Notes under the pieces: generated by a model
What the model saw: only the letters and a program-made list of their open reading frames with translations
Told to the model about the DNA's origin: nothing
Databases searched by the model: none
Shown: piece after piece, positions 326-7,584 of the stretch
Numbering within the stretch: position 1 is the first letter of the stretch
Layout: the number at the start of each line of letters is the position of its first letter
Source: a virus
IMG/VR virus record: IMGVR_UViG_3300030102_001148
Span: 1-20,063 of that record
Reading direction: 5' to 3' (one strand)
DNA: 20,063 nt
Program-made: the position numbers and the translations under genes

Positions 326-880
326 CTACCCTACCTCCTGATTCCTAGCTGAATAGGGGATGTAGTTTATGTTGATAACAACCCTTCTATTCCCGCCAAA
401 TGTAGGAAGGACAGACCTGTGCAATATTACCGAATCAAAAACGACAAGCCTATTTGCCTTTGTCGAGATTACTTTGTCATGCCCCTTGAACTCCGTGCCG
501 CCCAAATCATCATCAAGATAGTAGATAGCAGTCTTGAACAGCTTTGAAATTTCTGGTGGCACTCTGCTTTCCACGTCTTCAAAATCCATGTGGAAGTTAG
601 ATACCGCTTGTGTATCGAGGGTCATATTAGCTTTGACCTTCAAGATGCAAAATGGATCAATCTTTTTGACAAGTGGCATAATGACAGAGTTGAAATCACT
701 CCAGCCAAAATTGTAAGACTCAGCGTGAAGGTTCTGATAGAACATATGCGTGAACTGAGGGTTGCCATCCCCCACAAAATCAGTGCTGGCCTGTGAATAC
801 CACGGGAAGTGATTGTCCTTTACTTGACATACCTGTTGGTATTCTTCGGGGGTCAGGAAGTCATCATGTATCTCAATCAT
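326..880 (-). CDS. 2-oxoglutarate/Fe(II)-dependent oxygenase (prolyl-4-hydroxylase-like fold)
   Basis: The 184-residue protein carries the facial triad of the 2OG-Fe(II) oxygenase superfamily: H97-x-D99 (FHMDF) and distal H154 (ILHRS), followed 11-12 residues later by R165/R166, which would bind the 2-oxoglutarate carboxylate. The strand AIYYLDDDLGGTEF (about 118-131) is typical of the double-stranded beta-helix core. The family couples decarboxylation of 2-oxoglutarate to hydroxylation of a substrate; the substrate here is unknown. Close relatives are frequent in cyanophages and other marine phages, often beside tail-fibre genes. The gene follows the polyglycine adhesin by nine bases, and its start has a GGGGG-type ribosome site at 885-890. 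No signal peptide or membrane segment is seen, so it probably acts in the host cytoplasm. The fold assignment is secure; substrate and role are not. Confidence 0.88.
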   Translation of the reverse strand: MIEIHDDFLTPEEYQQVCQVKDNHFPWYSQASTDFVGDGNPQFTHMFYQNLHAESYNFGWSDFNSVIMPLVKKIDPFCILKVKANMTLDTQAVSNFHMDFEDVESRVPPEISKLFKTAIYYLDDDLGGTEFKGHDKVISTKANRLVVFDSVILHRSVLPTFGGNRRVVININYIPYSARNQEVG

Positions 881-889
881 CCTAGCCCC

Positions 890-1873
890 CTATGGCGTCG
901 AATAACGGATAAGGACGATACCTGAACCACCGGAGCCGCCTGAGCCAGTTGATTGGCCCCCGTGATAACGTCCTGAACCACCGCCCCCGCCGGAGCCTGA
1001 ATTGGCGGATGCTGCGAAACCGTTGAGAGCGTTGTTGCCACCGTTCTGTGATGCGCCATTCCCTGCGCCACCGCCACCGCCGGAACCGTTATTGGCGGCA
1101 CCGCCACCGCCACCGCCGCCAGCCTTCTGGCCGTCTACGAAAGCTGCCTTTGAGCCGCCGCCATTTGCGCCTCTAGTGTTTGACAGTCCATTTGAACCAG
1201 CACTATTAGCACCACCGCCGCCACCAGCACCTCCAGAGTTTTGACCACCACCATTCGGGGCTGGGTGGCCCGTGCCTCCATTGTTGCCAAATCCACTTGC
1301 TGTCTTTGATGAACTACCACCAGCGCGAGTCGCATTTTGACCATCAACAGAACCACCGCCCCCGCCACCGGAGCCGCCAGCCTTACCATTAGATGCGGTG
1401 TTTCCACCGCCACCACCGCCATTGCAGTCAATATTAAAGCCACCGCCTATGGCTTTGCTATCACCACCTTGACCAGACTGCCCACCGCCGCCGCCTACTG
1501 TCACAGTCACGTTGCCGTTAATCGTCGTACTACTGCTTTGTTTGAACTCACCAGCACCACCGCCCCCACCAAGGTCAGCACCGCCCCCACCGCCAGCGGC
1601 GATGACGAGGGCTTCCATCGACCGAGAACCGTTGACAGTTAATGTACCCGAGCTTGTAAACCGGTGATAAGTGAAACCGCCGTTTGTAAACGTCGCGTTG
1701 CCGCCGGATGCGCTGAAGGATGATTTACCGTAAAAATCTGAAAGAGTGATTTCGCCAGAACTGGGAACACCTGATGCGGCGCTGTAATACTCACTCAAAG
1801 CGGTTGGCGCAGAACCGCCAAACTCCGTTTGAATATCACCAAGTGATATTTGCCCACTACTTTGAAGCGCCAT
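890..1873 (-). CDS. Polyglycine-rich tail-fibre tip / adhesin-like protein
   Basis: This 327-residue protein has an N-terminal module (1-50) with two similar motifs, SGQISLGDIQTEFGG and SGEITLSDFYG, which often open phage fibre-associated proteins. A small beta region follows (about 57-92, with TYHRFTSSGTLTV and SMEALVIAA). Then a long glycine-rich domain (94-318) contains at least nine runs of five or more glycines separated by short polar segments. It ends in GSGIVLIRYSTP, the usual closing strand of the glycine-rich fold. The known parallel is the polyglycine-II sandwich of T-even gp38-type adhesins, where loops between Gly runs contact the receptor; no gp38 orthology is claimed. The start ATG lies inside the end of the fibre gene (17-base overlap), with an AGGAG ribosome site seven bases upstream. 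Likely role: receptor recognition at the fibre tip. Confidence 0.75.
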   Translation of the reverse strand: MALQSSGQISLGDIQTEFGGSAPTALSEYYSAASGVPSSGEITLSDFYGKSSFSASGGNATFTNGGFTYHRFTSSGTLTVNGSRSMEALVIAAGGGGGADLGGGGGAGEFKQSSSTTINGNVTVTVGGGGGQSGQGGDSKAIGGGFNIDCNGGGGGGNTASNGKAGGSGGGGGGSVDGQNATRAGGSSSKTASGFGNNGGTGHPAPNGGGQNSGGAGGGGGANSAGSNGLSNTRGANGGGSKAAFVDGQKAGGGGGGGAANNGSGGGGGAGNGASQNGGNNALNGFAASANSGSGGGGGSGRYHGGQSTGSGGSGGSGIVLIRYSTP

Positions 1874-3569
1874 TTTCTAACTCCTTCACACGAGCCGACA
1901 ACTCTTTTACTGCTTCGATCAGAAGCGCATGAAGCTGATCATATGCGACCACATCGTATTCTGTTTCTTCATCGCCTGTTTTTAGGGGCAGGGTTGTTTG
2001 ACTAACAGCAGAAGGAAGAACTTGTGCAACATCAGTAGACATAACACCAGCAGATGATCCGCCGTGCTTATAGTCGAAGGTATAACCCGTAAGCTGTTCT
2101 ACTTTCGATAATGCGTCTGCAACAGGCTCTACGTTTTCCTTGAGTCGTGGGTCAGAAGCAATGGTCGTAGAAAACGCGATAACGTCGCCTTCTACATGGA
2201 GGTCACCGTCGCTTTCAAGGCGCATGTCATTTGCATTGTTGACGAAAAAGTCGAGCCGCGTGTTACCTGTCCATTGAATATAGTCAGTGCTATCGTGACC
2301 GAGTTTGCCGGTTGTAAAAATCGTACTTGAACCGGTGTCAATACTGCCAAACCCGCTTGTGATACTGCCGCTGTCAAGCGCCCCGGTTGTGACAATATTT
2401 GAGTCCCCCGCCGATGGCGCAGCGCCAATGTCAGAAAGAACCTCAGAAGCTGAACGCCCTTCGATAACCGTTCCATCAACACGCAAGAAGTCGTTGTCGG
2501 CTACGCCAGCAGCAAACTTTGCAACATTATTAGTTGATACGCCTGTGTTCAACGTCGCCACGTCGCCAAGTCCGATATCTGACCGCACCTCTGACGCACT
2601 TCGACTCTCAAGACCGTTGGCAGTAAAACGTGCGAACTCATCGTCCGCTACAGATGCGCTATCAATCTTGACTGCGTTGGTATTACTAATGCCAAAAGTA
2701 AGACTAGCTTGTGCGCCGATGTCTGACAGAACTTCAGAGGCAGAACGCCCCTCAATAGCTGTGCCATCGACACGCAAAAAATCGTTATCAGCTACGCCAC
2801 TAGTGAACTTCGGCACATTTGTGTTGGATATACCTGTGTCTAATACAGCCGCAGTACCAAGTCCGATATCTGACCGCACCTCTGACGCGCTTCGGCTTTC
2901 TAGACCGTCGGCAGTAAATCGTGCGAACTCATCGTCTGCTACAGACGAGCTATCAATCTTAACCGCGTTAGTATTACTGATTCCAAATGTCAGGCTGGCC
3001 TGTGCGCCAATGTCAGACAGCACCTCGCTAGTTGACCGACTTTCCAAACCGTTAGCGGTAAATCGAGCATATTCATCATCCGCCACAGACGAACTATCAA
3101 TTTTGACTGCGTTGGTGTTACTGATTCCAAATGTCAGGCTAGCTTGTGCGCCAATATCAGAAAGAACTTCAGAAGCAGAACGGCCTTCAATCGCGGTGCC
3201 GTCTACCCGCAAGAAGTCATTGTCGGCAACACCGGATGTAAATTTTGGTACGTTTGTGTTTGAAATCCCAGTATCTAATACTGCCGCAGTGCCAAGACCT
3301 AGAGATGTCCTGACAGTTGCGCCAGTTTCTAATACAAAATTAGCACCGTCTCCAACAATGAAACCGCCATCAGTAACAGCAAGTCCCGCTACGTCTTGTA
3401 GCTGTGCGTCAAGCCTAGCATTAGCAACCGTGCCTGTCAGATTGCCTGCTGGAATGCCGCCTGTACCAGTGATATTGTTGTTATTAAGATCAAGGTCGCC
3501 ACCAAGCTGCGGAGACGTATCTAAAACTACATCAACTGTTTTGTCTGGTGAATTTCCAATATAGCCCAT
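1857..3569 (-). CDS. Tail fibre with internal repeats and C-terminal S74 intramolecular chaperone
   Basis: The 570-residue protein has three parts. The N-terminus (1-99) begins MGYIGNSPDKTVDVVLDT, a common start of marine phage fibres, and includes the block 46-141 shared with the gene at 3931-4653. Residues 101-382 contain six repeat units of 47-51 residues in the order A-B-B-A-B-A, each ending in a version of SRSASEVLSDIG. After a beta-rich stretch (390-466), the last 99 residues form a peptidase S74 (endosialidase-type chaperone) domain. In that family a Ser-Lys dyad cleaves the chaperone off after it has trimerised the fibre. Here the dyad fits S472 and K477 in SDPRLKENV, followed by GYTFDYK, AGVMSTDV and a C-terminal helix with VAYDQLHALLIEAVKEL. 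Its ATG shares one base with the preceding TAA. Likely role: trimeric receptor-binding or adhesin-carrying fibre. Confidence 0.88.
   Translation of the reverse strand: MGYIGNSPDKTVDVVLDTSPQLGGDLDLNNNNITGTGGIPAGNLTGTVANARLDAQLQDVAGLAVTDGGFIVGDGANFVLETGATVRTSLGLGTAAVLDTGISNTNVPKFTSGVADNDFLRVDGTAIEGRSASEVLSDIGAQASLTFGISNTNAVKIDSSSVADDEYARFTANGLESRSTSEVLSDIGAQASLTFGISNTNAVKIDSSSVADDEFARFTADGLESRSASEVRSDIGLGTAAVLDTGISNTNVPKFTSGVADNDFLRVDGTAIEGRSASEVLSDIGAQASLTFGISNTNAVKIDSASVADDEFARFTANGLESRSASEVRSDIGLGDVATLNTGVSTNNVAKFAAGVADNDFLRVDGTVIEGRSASEVLSDIGAAPSAGDSNIVTTGALDSGSITSGFGSIDTGSSTIFTTGKLGHDSTDYIQWTGNTRLDFFVNNANDMRLESDGDLHVEGDVIAFSTTIASDPRLKENVEPVADALSKVEQLTGYTFDYKHGGSSAGVMSTDVAQVLPSAVSQTTLPLKTGDEETEYDVVAYDQLHALLIEAVKELSARVKELENGASK
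2424..3269 (-). repeat. Six-unit internal repeat of the fibre gene, order A-B-B-A-B-A
   Basis: Units start at about 3269, 3128, 2987, 2834, 2693 and 2543 (minus strand), giving periods of 47, 47, 51, 47 and 50 codons. A units read VPKFTSGVADNDFLRVDGT..EGRSASEVLSDIG; B units read AVKIDSSSVADDEFARFT..GLESRSASEVRSDIG. DNA similarity is high between same-type units, for example near 2570 and 2860, which both carry ccgatatctgaccgcacctc. This indicates recent duplication or ongoing recombination. Confidence 0.9.
3147..3434 (-). repeat. Fibre copy of the 96-codon block shared with 3988-4275
   Basis: Residues 46-141 of the fibre match residues 127-222 of the upstream neighbour (3931-4653) without a gap. 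By hand count 83 of 96 residues are identical. The shared block runs from GTVANARLD to SEVLSDIGA and includes one complete A repeat unit. A paralogous module duplication explains it. Confidence 0.9.
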
Positions 3570-3919
3570 TAGGTGATCTCCATTATGCTCAAGGTCGCGT
3601 CGATCTTGGCGGCAACGTCACAGTCAATCTTTAATACATCTGTTGTTTGCAAAACAACCTTGCCGCCAGAAAGAACCTCAACCGAAGAGCCAACCGGAAT
3701 TGGGATATCCTTAGCCAGCAGAACCGTCTCGTTGGTTTCTGTGTCCGATGTGTCAGAAACAAGCTGCACATCAGCAGTTATAGCACTACTATGTACGTTA
3801 CATAACACTAAGCCCAAAACGATGCTGGTTGTGCTTGACGGCACCGTATACAAAGTAAGCGGCGTACCAGCACTCGCTGGCATAGCCGCATTTGTTTTTA
3901 CCTTAAATGTATTAGCCAT
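3569..3919 (-). CDS. Putative virion structural protein, small beta-rich
   Basis: This 116-residue protein has no catalytic motif, signal peptide or membrane span. It reads as a single beta-sandwich-like domain: alternating strands such as TSIVLGLVLCNV, SAITADVQLVSD, SVEVLSGGKVVL and VLKIDCDV, with a conserved-looking IPVGSSVEVLSGGK turn. I recall similar short proteins starting MANTFK in many phages, where they sit next to fibre genes and are called hypothetical or structural. A GGAG ribosome site overlaps the stop of the preceding gene, and its own TAA overlaps the ATG of the large fibre by one base (TAATG), so the two are probably made in a coupled ratio. A role as a fibre-attachment, decoration or collar protein is an inference from position only. 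Confidence 0.6.
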   Translation of the reverse strand: MANTFKVKTNAAMPASAGTPLTLYTVPSSTTSIVLGLVLCNVHSSAITADVQLVSDTSDTETNETVLLAKDIPIPVGSSVEVLSGGKVVLQTTDVLKIDCDVAAKIDATLSIMEIT

Positions 3920-3930
3920 CTAAATCTCCA

Positions 3931-4653
3931 TCACCCCAGCGCAATCGCAAGAGCTGTTGCCTCGTCCGCTGCCGCTGTTGCGGTTGTTGCACCAATATCA
4001 GATAGAACCTCTGAAGCCGAGCGACCTTCAATAGATGTGCCGTCAATCCGCAAAAAGTCGTTGTCGGCAGCGCCAGATGTAAATACAGCTACATTTCCAT
4101 TACTAATGCCTGTGTCCGCTGTAGCTGACGAGCCAAGTCCGAGAGATGTCCTAACAGTGGATCCAGTTTCCAATACAAAGTTCGCGCCATCACCAACTAT
4201 GAAGCCACCATTTGTGACAGCAAGACCAGCGACATCCTGTAACTGCTGATCAAGTCTTGCGTTAGCTACTGTGCCACTTGCAAGATTACTGGCGTTCAAC
4301 GCAGTCAATGCACTGCCATTAGCCGCTATAATATTCCCACTTCCATCAAGGAACAGGGCTTTCTCTGCTGGCTGCGTACAGAAGATGGTTCTTGAACCAG
4401 AACTCCAATTCACCGCGTTGTCACTGTTACTAGACTGCAAGATCGTAGTACGAGCTAGTGTCGTGCCAGATGCCGTGTAGGTGCCGATACCAACCTCGAA
4501 ATCGGTGCCATCGGTGCAACAATAGTAGGTGGTGTTAGAGTTGCCTATCTGGGAGAACGCCTCAAAACCAGCAACGGCACCAGCTAATGTATAAGTGCCA
4601 GTGCCGGTGGTGGTTGTCGTCTCTTTGACGCGATCCTTTAGTACCAGTGCCAT
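3931..4653 (-). CDS. Short tail-fibre-like protein sharing a module with the main fibre
   Basis: The 240-residue protein opens with MALVLKDRVKETTTTTGTGT and continues with GFEAFSQIGNSNTTYYCC and TASGTTLARTTILQSSN. This N-terminal module (1-105) is very widespread in phage fibre or baseplate-like proteins, and I recognise it without a firm function. Residues 127-222 are nearly identical to residues 46-141 of the large fibre, including one A-type repeat unit. The short C-terminus (223-240) is Ala/Thr-rich and ends without an S74 domain. Its start sits on a TAATG junction with the previous gene. It may be a fibre base or adaptor whose C-terminal repeat packs against the matching repeat in the large fibre, or a shortened fibre paralogue. 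The adjacent CC pair at 45-46 is unusual for this protein set. Confidence 0.7.
   Translation of the reverse strand: MALVLKDRVKETTTTTGTGTYTLAGAVAGFEAFSQIGNSNTTYYCCTDGTDFEVGIGTYTASGTTLARTTILQSSNSDNAVNWSSGSRTIFCTQPAEKALFLDGSGNIIAANGSALTALNASNLASGTVANARLDQQLQDVAGLAVTNGGFIVGDGANFVLETGSTVRTSLGLGSSATADTGISNGNVAVFTSGAADNDFLRIDGTSIEGRSASEVLSDIGATTATAAADEATALAIALG
3988..4275 (-). repeat. Second copy of the 96-codon fibre module
   Basis: This segment encodes residues 127-222 of the 240-residue fibre-like protein and is the partner of the block at 3147-3434. Thirteen of 96 residues differ, mostly conservative changes plus a cluster in the middle (GSSATADT against GTAAVLDT). Two such blocks 840 bases apart in the same orientation are a substrate for recombination that would delete the intervening gene. 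Confidence 0.88.
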
Positions 4654-5087
4654 TACTTCAACTCGATAGTCAGGTTCCCTGCGTTGATACGGAAGATGTC
4701 ACCAGAAGCAATAGTCTTGTTAGCATCTAGTGCGCCAACAAACAGGATGTTTCCACTAGATGACGCATCGGCAATAAATACATGGGTAATTGTATCGTCA
4801 CCGCCACCACCAGAGGCAGGAAAATCAATGTTATTCGCGTTCGTTGCGGTCTGCGTGTCGGTTGAATCTGCACCTATTGTAGTCCAACCTGATGCGGCCA
4901 CCTGCTGTCGGGCGTAGTTTGTAAAGTCAGCCTCTGTTAAAGAGCCTGTCTCTGCCGCAGATACCGCAGTTGCTAGACCGACATAGATGCTGTCACCCGG
5001 CGAGGAAAAACTCAACGAGTTGTTCTTGAATATAAAATGCAACAACCTCCGCTCTAGGTAGTTTGTTGCTGCGTTTGATGTTGCCAT
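4653..5087 (-). CDS. Putative phage tail / virion structural protein
   Basis: The 144-residue protein starts MATSNAATNYLERRLLHFIF, an opening I recognise from a large family of small phage virion proteins (commonly annotated tail fibre or Gp80-like protein). Typical family features are present in order: a short N-terminal helix, IYVGLAT at about 34-40, NYARQQV at 57-63, NIDFPASGGG at 86-95, THVFIAD at about 101-107, and a C-terminal core with GNILFVGALD, TIASGDIFRINAGNLTIEL. The length is usual for the family. An AAGGAG ribosome site overlaps the stop codon of the adaptor gene upstream, and the TAA overlaps the next ATG. No enzyme motif is present. A place in the tail or fibre base is plausible by family and position; the exact role is unknown. 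Confidence 0.7.
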   Translation of the reverse strand: MATSNAATNYLERRLLHFIFKNNSLSFSSPGDSIYVGLATAVSAAETGSLTEADFTNYARQQVAASGWTTIGADSTDTQTATNANNIDFPASGGGGDDTITHVFIADASSSGNILFVGALDANKTIASGDIFRINAGNLTIELK

Positions 5088-5099
5088 TTTTTCTGCTCC

Positions 5100-5747
5100 T
5101 TATGATCTAGGCCGATCTGGCAAGCCCCTTCGATATGCGTCACTGTTTTCTCTCGACTCTGCTAGATCTTTAATACGCGATATCGCTTCAACAAACTGTT
5201 TTTCATACATCTGAAGCATGTCTTGTTCGCCTTTCATGTAAATATACGCTTCATACAAAGAACCGTAAAGTAAGGCGTTTGGCGCATTATCACTGAGCCA
5301 TGTAGTTCCACTATCCGCACCTGCTGTTAAAGAAGCTGGGCGATAGTAATAATGTATTTCGCAAGTGTAATTACTATCTGGAGTCGGAGCTAAAATTAAA
5401 TTATCTACGTCAAACATCGCATAGTATTTTGGAGTGCCTGTCGAAGAAGCGTTCGGATGGTACTCTTGAAGAAAATTAACATCCTTATGTAATAAAAATT
5501 CTTTTGAGCTTCCGTTTGTAATTGATAAGGAAAAAGTAGCAAGAAAATCTGTTGGAAGCGATAAAAATGGATCGTTTTGTGTAACAGCGCTTGTAGCGTT
5601 TTTACGAAAATACTCGAGATCAACCAGTTTAAAAATGCGATCTTCTGCCGCACGAATAAAAACAGGCAGATTCGTCACAAACGACGTTTCTGTATTTTCA
5701 GTAAAATCCTGAATCGCTGTTTTAAGTTGTGCGTATGTAAACGCCAT
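5100..5747 (-). CDS. Head-to-tail adaptor protein (SU10-adaptor-like)
   Basis: This 215-residue protein begins MAFTYAQLKTAIQDFTENTE and continues with LPVFIRAAEDRIFK, LSLPTDFLATFSLS, FLQEYHPN, GTPKYYAMFD and the strand EIHYYYRPASL. It ends with a helical segment (about 160-198: NALLYGSLYEAYIYMKGE..QMYEKQFVEAI). This arrangement, helical ends around a beta barrel, is that of the adaptor proteins that form a ring below the portal in SU10-like and other short-tailed phages, and near-identical openings occur in marine phages. It would link the portal to the tail nozzle or fibres. The start ATG directly follows the stop of the preceding gene, whose last codons (TTG GAG GAT) supply a GGAGG ribosome site. 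Confidence in the neck/adaptor role is good, less in the exact ring position. Confidence 0.78.
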   Translation of the reverse strand: MAFTYAQLKTAIQDFTENTETSFVTNLPVFIRAAEDRIFKLVDLEYFRKNATSAVTQNDPFLSLPTDFLATFSLSITNGSSKEFLLHKDVNFLQEYHPNASSTGTPKYYAMFDVDNLILAPTPDSNYTCEIHYYYRPASLTAGADSGTTWLSDNAPNALLYGSLYEAYIYMKGEQDMLQMYEKQFVEAISRIKDLAESRENSDAYRRGLPDRPRS

Positions 5748-6248
5748 TTAATCCTCCAACGTCACCGGTCCCACAGTCGCAGTTTTACCGCCCCCGCGTT
5801 GACTACCTGTCGTTGCTGTTCCGCTTGATGCGGTGAAGGTGTACCGATCAGTCGTCGTAACTGTAATCGAATACCCCGAACTATTTTCAAGAATCGCGCT
5901 AGTAAACCCATCAAAACCAACTGTCTCCCTAAAACGCACAGTATCACCGCTGGTTCGACCGTGGCTTTTTTCAATCACAGTAATAACCGCTGAGCCAGAA
6001 GAACCCGATAAGAAGGGGTTAACACCTAAAAGACGCGCAACTGCTGGCTCAGTTCTATCTGTTCTAGCGTCTTTAATCGCTATGTCGTCCGATAAATCTG
6101 TAGACGGCTCTAACTGCGGATGTTTTGACTCAAACTCAGAAACATGAACAATAGCACCGTTCCATTCTCGAACTCTTTCTGAGTATGGAAACGCAAAACC
6201 ACTTCTATCCGAAATAAATTTCGCATGTTTTCCTGTAGCGAATCCCAT
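5748..6248 (-). CDS. Conserved neck-region protein with a cysteine-free former zinc-ribbon motif
   Basis: The 166-residue protein begins MGFATGKHAKFISDRSGFAF and contains PYSERVREWNGAIVHVSEFE and KHPQLEP within its first 50 residues. In related phage proteins I recall this stretch as a four-cysteine ribbon (CDRCG..EWNGLRVCPEC..KHPQ). Here the four positions are Ser13, Ser16, His34 and Glu37 or nearby residues, and the whole protein has no cysteine. The C-terminal two thirds (about 70-166) is beta-rich, with ITVIEKSHGRTSGDTVRFRE, GYSITVTTTDRYTFTASSGTAT and a final GGGKTATVGPVTLED. It lies between two connector-type genes and starts on a TGATG junction, so a neck or tail structural role is likely. 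The molecular function is unknown. Confidence 0.68.
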   Translation of the reverse strand: MGFATGKHAKFISDRSGFAFPYSERVREWNGAIVHVSEFESKHPQLEPSTDLSDDIAIKDARTDRTEPAVARLLGVNPFLSGSSGSAVITVIEKSHGRTSGDTVRFRETVGFDGFTSAILENSSGYSITVTTTDRYTFTASSGTATTGSQRGGGKTATVGPVTLED

Positions 6249-6904
6249 CAGCTAATGATCCTTGGAACCAACCGTAAACTAGCACGATCTCGATCTTCAG
6301 ACGCAGCTCTAGCAAATTCTTCATCGTAGACAGATTTTAATACAGCGATTCGATCAGGAGCTACTTTCATGCTCAGGTAGTAAGCTAACCCGGCAACCAA
6401 GCAGGGAAAGAATCTAAACGGCAAATCGAAATCATTTGTATAAGTGTCCGCATCGTCAATACGAACCAAACGATAATACACAATTTGATCAGTAGAGTTT
6501 TCTGGAGTTTGCCATAAATTCACAACCGGATTTACTTGGCGATCTACAAAAAACTGAGACGGCTTACCCTTATCGCTTTTTGTAGGAATATTTAGATACT
6601 CGCCCCTACCAATCCGAGACATAGATGTGTCTGTACCGCTCCGACGTAAGACCATCTCTAAAATGTCGATGGTGTCCGCGCCTAGTGTATAAGTAGCCGT
6701 GCCTTCGGTAAGCGTTGTAGTTACTTGCTCAATAGTAAACAAGTTTACGCCACGGTTAGCCCACTCGGCTAACATAAGGTTTAAGGAACGTCGTGCAGTG
6801 CGTAGACTATAACCCGCTCGTACTTCAATACCGCAACGCTCGTATGCTTCTTCTATTGCATCCGATACATCAATATTGAAGTTTCTGGAGTCTGAGACAG
6901 CCAT
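6248..6904 (-). CDS. Putative head-tail connector / packaged-DNA stabilisation protein (gp4-like)
   Basis: The 218-residue protein opens MAVSDSRNFNIDVSDAIEEA, followed by YERCGIEVRAGYSLRTARRSLNLML and WANRGVNLFTIEQ (about 15-58). Then come a beta segment (LTEGTATYTL, DILEMVLR), VVNLWQTP, the strand IVYYRLVRIDD, and a closing helical part (LPFRFFPCLVAGLAYYLSMK, YDEEFARAASEDRDRA). This order is shared with a widespread connector family in podoviruses, usually compared with P22 gp4 or T7 gp11, whose rings sit under the portal and keep the packaged DNA in. Both of its junctions overlap by one base. The connector class is likely; the gp4 versus gp11 equivalence is inference and cannot be settled by eye. 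Confidence 0.72.
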   Translation of the reverse strand: MAVSDSRNFNIDVSDAIEEAYERCGIEVRAGYSLRTARRSLNLMLAEWANRGVNLFTIEQVTTTLTEGTATYTLGADTIDILEMVLRRSGTDTSMSRIGRGEYLNIPTKSDKGKPSQFFVDRQVNPVVNLWQTPENSTDQIVYYRLVRIDDADTYTNDFDLPFRFFPCLVAGLAYYLSMKVAPDRIAVLKSVYDEEFARAASEDRDRASLRLVPRIIS

Positions 6905-7584
6905 TACTCATCTTTCGCATATAGATTATCAAAAATTTGATTTACGTCCATCGTATAGTCTAAATCAGATTTTGAATAGTGAATATGCTGTGATGGACGA
7001 AAGTCTGGAGGACCGCTACCGGTTTCGAACCATGCTGGGTGCGTAACACGGACTCGATTATTAGGCAGCGCTACAATATTTCCTGTCCATCTACCTGCGT
7101 CCAACAACTCTAAAACATGACTTTGTTTATGCTGTGCCGGATCATCTGCCACTTCACTTTCTGTGTAATCCACAGTAAAATAGTATTTAGCAGGATAAAA
7201 CTCACCGTCGATTTTTGCTAACCACGGACACGGATGCGCTCGATCTAAACGGTAAACTGCATGCGTATGGGACATACAATCCCACGGCTGAGCAAAATGC
7301 ACAGGCATGGGTTCCGGCCATTTTTCAAACGGTGTATCACCAACTAGCGCGGTAATCGGCATACGCGCCCACATCGCTCCGCCGTGAACATTTTGTTCCT
7401 CGGTTTCTTCGTCTACTTCAAAACCTGTAAACAAAACTTGAAAGCTCAAACAACGACTCGGAATCGTTGTCACAGCAATCGCCATAGCGTGTAAAAACTC
7501 GCCATGATATTTCATATGGTTATGCGTGTACTCTCTTCGCACCCAGCACTTGAAATGCGAAATATTGCTTTGTAAATATGGCAA
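6904..7584 (-). CDS. Conserved marine phage neck-region protein, TTG start
   Basis: I chose a TTG start at 7584, giving MPYLQSNISHFKCWVRREYT. This opening recurs in marine phage homologues I recall, and the next in-frame ATG (residue 24) would remove it. The 226-residue protein is rich in aromatic and His residues, with HNHMKYHGEF, FEKWPEPMPVHFAQPWDCM, YFTVDYTE, HVLELLDAG, PNNRVRVTHPAWF and HIHYSKSDLDY. No catalytic signature is recognisable and there is no signal peptide or membrane span. A weak GGGAAG ribosome site lies in the end of the preceding gene, whose TAA is two bases before the start. Its stop overlaps the ATG of the connector gene (TAATG). The position suggests a neck or tail component; the function is unknown. 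Confidence 0.66.
   Translation of the reverse strand: MPYLQSNISHFKCWVRREYTHNHMKYHGEFLHAMAIAVTTIPSRCLSFQVLFTGFEVDEETEEQNVHGGAMWARMPITALVGDTPFEKWPEPMPVHFAQPWDCMSHTHAVYRLDRAHPCPWLAKIDGEFYPAKYYFTVDYTESEVADDPAQHKQSHVLELLDAGRWTGNIVALPNNRVRVTHPAWFETGSGPPDFRPSQHIHYSKSDLDYTMDVNQIFDNLYAKDE

Follow-up and report, generated by a model that had tools for sequence, protein, structure and literature searches.

In the T4-type fibre protein gp37, domain duplications and mosaicism of tail-fibre motifs are established, and fibre genes trade small domains by recombination. A fibre may also draw on more than one gene product, as is reportedly the case for LtfA/LtfB of DT57C, a multi-protein or branched fibre. In marine phages, the genes for tail fibres and host recognition vary between near-identical genomes, and fibres with repeats and with S74 domains appear in the portion of that work available to us (PMC3909814). 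Here, we describe a fibre locus in IMG/VR virus record IMGVR_UViG_3300030102_001148, a 20,063-base record analysed at its full length and referred to as the window. The fibre region lies on the minus strand, where a GP4-gp80-like gene is followed by a small fibre, a gene for a 116-residue protein (named m116 here) and a large fibre with an S74 end. At the sequence level, the locus and its relatives display fibre modules, changes in unit number and an association between a tag at the C terminus of the small fibre, m116 and a second tag at the N terminus of the following protein. The association of the C-terminal tag with m116 is seen again in many viruses, most of them marine, that otherwise differ from one another. 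The initial annotation took the 116-residue gene as a separator between the two fibres; it is probably the key part of the system. We lean towards a segmented fibre, in which the small fibre would be a tagged strut, m116 the joint that partners the tag, and the next fibre, with its N-terminal tag, a further segment. The parts that matter for this proposal are as follows (ORF, open reading frame).

4653..5087, minus strand: homologue of the podophage GP4 fibre I protein gp80, 144 residues, adjoining the small fibre (Pfam PF23140, 100.6 bits, cut-off 27; PDB 8jou_a, E 5.4e-12)
3931..4653, minus strand: small fibre, 240 residues, with N-domain, HD module, one A unit and C-terminal tag (ORF; read as Nsm-HD-A-Cs in the module scan)
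3934..3960, minus strand: C-terminal tag ATALAIALG, the final nine residues of the small fibre before the stop (exact in 68 of 69 distinct fibres of the Cs type; tied to the 116-residue gene)
3569..3919, minus strand: m116, 116 residues, starting 11 nucleotides past the small-fibre stop, with its own stop overlapping the large-fibre start by one nucleotide (ORF)
1857..3569, minus strand: large fibre, 570 residues, with N-terminal tag, LGG module, HD module, six units, 88-residue linker (TRI) and S74 domain (ORF; Pfam; module scan)
3555..3569, minus strand: MGYIG, the N-terminal tag carried by the large fibre, whose start reads MGYIGNSP (a like start in 156 of 182 distinct genes after a tagged m116)
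2004..2156, minus strand: Peptidase_S74 (intramolecular chaperone) domain, residues 472-522 of the large fibre (PF13884, 40.4 bits, cut-off 22)

The match to PF23140 above its cut-off places the gene at 4653-5087 in the GP4 fibre I (gp80) family, and its product is the probable virion-side anchor. The large fibre is an S74-tipped fibre, its C-terminal intramolecular chaperone domain being predicted from sequence. The nearest relatives of the window's terminase are those of phage DSL-LC04, phage 023Pt_psg01 and pelagiphage HTVC027P, at 59-61%.

Association of the C-terminal tag, m116 and the N-terminal tag

Relatives (loci denoted by L and a number) were taken from among the matches listed in the collection searches, and most are fragments of short-read assemblies. 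The Cs-type fibres in which ATALAIALG is exact range from 127 to 912 residues in length. The count of what follows fibres in the small-fibre slot covers 115 distinct fibres that are complete and have 450 nucleotides or more downstream; 13 others were too short. Of these, 91 end in IALG or AIAL, and m116 lies within 200 nucleotides of 86 of the 91; in the other five (L021, L246, L249, L262 and L264), one gene precedes m116. That intervening gene encodes 741-868 residues and ends in WKEVA. No m116 was found within 200 nucleotides of any of the 24 slot fibres lacking the tag. Viewed from the m116 side, loci L001-L356 and the window, which were not chosen by tag, supply 150 distinct neighbours upstream of m116, 133 of them tagged; this count leans towards the tag in that a tagged ORF was preferred when the upstream ORF was chosen.

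A scan of IMG/VR anchored on the tag, using a DNA pattern for ATALAIALG followed by a stop, returned at least 120 stretches, and 80 loci were read. At all 80 the pattern marks the end of an ORF, with proteins of 66-1191 residues where the start is visible. The bodies are diverse: their N termini fall into at least 14 families, 8 of which have at least two members, and A/B unit motifs are found in only 21 of the 80. Where at least 230 nucleotides lie downstream (71 loci), m116 is the next gene in 64 (E below 1e-3); among the seven misses, m116 comes one gene later in five, the contig ends early in one, and one (L378) has none. In L411, L416, L421, L424 and L434, a protein of ∼149 residues starting MAN(D/S) stands between the tagged fibre and m116, and could be either a second connector or an insertion. 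We also inspected 16 phage records, hand-picked for variety out of 47 with m116; the upstream protein is tagged in 14, with AIAL or AIALG in 13 and ALTIALG in S-BM3.

The protein m116 matches PHROGs 26609 and 1276, neither of known function, and deposited records, including that of pelagiphage HTVC010P, label it "structural" or "hypothetical," several as (virion) structural protein. No Pfam family, chaperone families included, matches it at E 0.01. Its profile gave no credible match among PDB chains (best E 0.021, to AlBeta86). The gene that follows a tagged m116 commonly starts with M, one or two residues and [YF][ILVM]G; the 182 distinct genes among which this was counted leave out 31 cases at contig edges or without a start. 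In 90 cases, the start of this gene overlaps the m116 stop by one base. As a background, the same pattern opens 116 of 1628 first-M ORFs of at least 100 residues (7%; 150 loci, some of the same genes included).

When the window is compared with L012/L013, the last 60 nucleotides of the fibre gene look 98% conserved. A nucleic-acid element in this conserved 3' end was considered and rejected: over 58 distinct tails, identical residues share a codon at a rate of 0.465, no higher than in the rest of the gene (0.46-0.52), and therefore selection acts on the peptide. Another ending, DFGLITGS..EDYGSVA or DYGLITSS..EDYGAIT, recurs on fibres without m116 (such as L017, L018, L022, L098 and L135) and is possibly a different docking tag. 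The string ALAIALG occurs in no PMC text, a corpus in which such sequences are seldom printed, and literature searches for a tag or connector of this kind found nothing within a coverage that excludes most subscription papers.

A quick tree built from 126 m116 proteins (118 columns, tag-selected loci included) served to compare variation in the tag with variation in the fibre body. The presence or absence of the final G (AIALG or AIAL) requires one change on this tree (107 rows, not counting 19 with other endings), and the six rows that lack G cluster in a single supported group. For the fibre's N-terminal family, assigned by rough patterns, at least 14 steps are needed over 37 assignable rows, and the same N-domain is found with both tag types. 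With one step for the tag variant against at least 14 for the N-terminal family, the tag therefore goes with m116 and not with the fibre body.

Candidate roles of m116: joint, chaperone or linked neighbor

In the proposed segmented fibre, the small fibre would serve as the strut, with its N-domain adjoining the product of the GP4-gp80-like anchor gene. Its shaft would consist of HD, A and B modules, variable in number among relatives, and would end in the fixed nine-residue tag. The 116-residue protein would partner this tag and serve as a joint, and the S74-tipped large fibre, with its second short tag at the start, probably lies beyond it. Shaft modules would be swapped, and their number altered, by in-register recombination of diverged homologous units, often between phages; since the tags stay constant, bodies of any length would still fit. 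Physical binding between these parts, their arrangement within the virion and any consequence for reach or for the choice of host are inferred.

The rival that fares best casts m116 as an assembly chaperone cognate to the fibre, or as a transient cap, of the gp38/Tfa kind, which would recognise the C-terminal tag and form no lasting joint. We consider this a serious rival, because fibre chaperones are often encoded just downstream, as m116 is, although an unlikely one. In such a reading the conserved fibre C terminus is what the chaperone recognises, and a module of fibre plus cognate chaperone is common to unrelated Alteromonas phages in the available part of the relevant study (PMC10579305). 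It leaves unexplained the recurrent N-terminal tag of the next gene, whose start so often overlaps m116, and m116 matches no Pfam chaperone family at the threshold given above. The second tag, together with the deposited "structural protein" labels, which are annotation only, favours a joint over a chaperone.

It is also conceivable, if improbable, that the tag serves another partner, for example a different tail protein or trimerisation of the fibre itself, and that m116 is tied to it by adjacency only. Tag and m116 are only a few bases apart in most loci and so would be inherited together. Five tagged slot fibres and five scan loci nevertheless retain both tag and m116 despite a gene between them, and m116 is absent within 200 nucleotides of the 24 untagged slot fibres.

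Several observations weigh against a segmented fibre. Seventeen of the 150 upstream neighbours of m116 lack the tag (five with an intervening gene, eight next to a second, distant copy and four that are other weak matches). Two of the 16 picked records have no clear tag, the upstream protein ending LIYSIVFG in S-SRM01 and DSL-LC04 having none. Likewise, 26 of the 182 following genes lack the N-terminal tag, which also occurs elsewhere. AlphaFold gave models of poor quality (mean pLDDT 64.9 and 49.1), and Foldseek against the PDB gave a best E of 0.17, with none at 0.001. The fibre families were assigned only roughly, adjacency alone could tie the tag variant to the m116 lineage, and a tree that is small and partly tag-selected does not by itself establish binding. 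The second, distant m116-like protein, of 106-108 residues and with no tagged neighbour, is found in L033, L036, L039, L042, L043, L045, L054 and L055, which belong to one phage group.

Beyond this locus, we tentatively propose a general two-tag snap joint, consisting of a C-terminal tag (ATALAIALG variants, on at least 14 N-terminal families), a 116-residue connector and a protein with the N-terminal tag M-x-[YF]-[IL]-G. If it exists, bodies of 66 to over 1000 residues could be exchanged among pelagiphages, Roseobacter, SAR116 and methylophilales phages, some cyanophages and a Rhizobium phage with the joint left unrebuilt, which would account for body swaps between unrelated phages that still fit. 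It would also give a testable role to a gene labelled "structural" or "hypothetical" and to PHROGs 1276 and 26609, as well as a rule by which fibre genes could be recognised from sequence, and their order read, in metagenomes without body similarity.

Repeat units and their number in relatives

The two fibres share modules, which are located as follows. Module assignments here and in the relatives rest on profiles seeded from window sequences.

4138..4275, minus strand: small-fibre HD module, making up the first half of the 96-residue block common to both fibres (module comparison)
3991..4137, minus strand: A unit of the small fibre (unit comparison; module scan)
3297..3431, minus strand: HD module of the large fibre (module comparison)
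3150..3296, minus strand: unit A1 of the large fibre (unit alignment)
3006..3149, minus strand: unit B1 of the large fibre (unit alignment)
2862..3005, minus strand: unit B2 of the large fibre (unit alignment)
2715..2861, minus strand: unit A2 of the large fibre, its 49 residues the same as in A1 and its DNA 76% identical (unit alignment)
2571..2714, minus strand: unit B3 of the large fibre (unit alignment)
2424..2570, minus strand: unit A3 of the large fibre (unit alignment)

The initial annotation described this anatomy correctly: the best gapless block of 96 residues (3147-3434 and 3988-4275) is identical at 83 of them, six units of 48 or 49 residues stand in A-B-B-A-B-A order at 2424-3296 in the large fibre, and a single gene, m116, separates the fibres. 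The shared block comprises one HD module and one A unit, a pair that recurs across this fibre family in the module scan. The repeats are far beyond chance because both of two repeat searches, one of them Tandem Repeats Finder, report them. For the A/B array, no Pfam tail-fibre repeat family was among 13 weak matches (E up to 10), and none exceeded its curated cut-off; the small fibre had no PDB match by sequence or profile search. As regards a diversity-generating retroelement or an invertible fibre cassette, no inverted repeats of at least 20 nucleotides lie within 1500-6500, and no search was aimed at a reverse transcriptase or recombinase. In cultured phages, units are found in 3 of 50697 records at E 0.001: in HTVC106P the match spans no more than 43 residues, at the HD end, and in two Streptomyces phages its identity is 32%. 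Among GTDB genomes, a single locus with a unit-like match was found (L357), on a contig of a Maricaulis metagenome-assembled genome (67% identity).

The DNA of same-type units, taken in that annotation to be near-identical, is in fact 71-87% identical in the large fibre (protein 78-100%). Divergence between units of the window runs deep and is spread fairly evenly: A1 and A2, the same at 49 of 49 residues, share 76% of bases (pS 0.85), the closest same-type pair, B2/B3, reaches 87% in DNA (pS 0.49), the small-fibre A unit is 66-72% identical in DNA to those of the large fibre, and the DNA of the shared block is 74% identical between fibres. Over 427 same-type pairs within fibres (142 distinct ORFs with at least two units), the medians are 93% for protein and 73% for DNA; no pair reaches 95% DNA identity and one reaches 90%, in assemblies from short reads that may hide nearly identical repeats but not repeats at 85-95%. 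The window holds nine modules (HD, A and B), and seven of them find a closer match in another locus than within the window itself. The exception is B2/B3, mutually closest at 0.879 versus 0.864 and 0.871 in other phages. From the divergence of the units and the kinship of modules with other loci, it follows that the array is old or was drawn from a wide pool; it reads as an old mosaic, and recent tandem duplication was rejected on the DNA divergence. Same-codon use at identical residues is 0.43 for A and 0.46 for B within a fibre, compared with 0.38 and 0.39 in unrelated fibres and with 0.385 and 0.389 expected from the fibre's own codon usage. Codon scrambling selected against recombination, an idea raised by the pS of A1/A2, was rejected, since the within-fibre values slightly exceed those of unrelated fibres and of the fibre's own codon usage rather than falling below them.

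Unit number does change among relatives. An identical repeat number in all of them had been named beforehand as the sign of an old, fixed architecture; instead, fibres at the same gene slot (142 distinct and complete) have anywhere from 0 to 10 units, and near-identical genes differ. In clusters of N-domain DNA at 97% identity or above with at least two members, unit number varies in 5 of 21 (at 99%, in 3 of 14). An all-against-all test found a clean internal insertion or deletion (indel) of whole modules in 24 of 21,237 pairs, which form three groups: L047-L050 and L052 versus L073-L076 (144 nucleotides), L017 versus L098 (1452 nucleotides), and L054 and L056 versus L041, L045 and L067 (141 or 144 nucleotides), with flanks 93 to 100% identical. 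Four junctions were read base by base, and in each the crossover falls at the matching point of two different units, its position being ambiguous over 44, 5, 7 and 0 nucleotides. Where the alleles differ by one unit (three of the four junctions), identity between the extra unit and the remaining units of its type in the gene is no more than 66-80%; the extra unit is therefore no tandem copy made after the alleles split. Taken together, same-point crossovers and diverged extra units therefore indicate unequal exchange between diverged units, and each indel would be either a loss in one allele or an imported gain in the other. These alleles make fibre-length evolution directly measurable in natural marine phages.

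The tip is mosaic too, as ten loci (L310-L313, L315-L319 and L321) combine an S74 end 75-82% identical to that of the window with no A/B unit. In L133, a gp80-like protein 99% identical to that of the window (83% in DNA) is accompanied by a slot fibre of 914 residues instead of 240.

Of the active duplication and shuffling first proposed for this locus, the variation in unit number among relatives stands, and active duplication in this gene does not, given the deep, even divergence, the codon use and the extra units. The accompanying idea, that the two fibres pack in register, is not reflected in conservation, as units occur in two ORFs in only 2 of 235 unit-bearing loci, many of them fragments. 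Although near-identical relatives differ in unit number and B2/B3 may record one older local duplication, tandem duplication here combined with such packing is thus highly improbable.

Neighboring genes and comparison with known systems

Past the large fibre, 890-1873 (minus strand) encodes a 327-residue protein with long glycine-rich stretches, a sub-threshold match to Gly_rich_2 (18.8 bits, cut-off 24.3) and a match to phrog_2295; it may be another tip protein. A 184-residue protein encoded at 326-880 (minus strand) looks to us like a 2OG-Fe(II) oxygenase. Genes for such oxygenases are counted among variable host-recognition regions in the available part of one survey (PMC3909814). Within the structural gene block, a 226-residue protein (6904-7584, minus strand) matches a PHROG named ferredoxin (phrog_3704, E 1.4e-27).

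For the set of C-terminal tag, 116-residue protein and N-terminal tag as a whole, we know of no counterpart. Its parts resemble several described systems. The metaviromic islands of marine phages share with this locus variable fibre genes, repeats and S74 domains; unit-level indels, a C-terminal tag and a connector gene are not described in the portion of that account at hand (PMC3909814). T4-type gp37 is alike in the gain, loss and exchange of domains, whereas here there are no near-identical copies and the shaft units are of another family. Likened by description only, LtfA/LtfB of DT57C also form a multi-gene fibre, while the connector here is a separate 116-residue gene. Podophage GP4 offers a direct point of contact, as a homologue of its gp80 sits beside the window's small fibre. 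Finally, gp38/Tfa-type modules, in the part of their description available, likewise place a small gene directly downstream and share it, with the fibre, across unrelated phages (PMC10579305); m116 differs from them in having no Pfam chaperone match, in pairing with a nine-residue C-terminal tag on differing bodies and in being followed by a gene with an N-terminal tag of its own.

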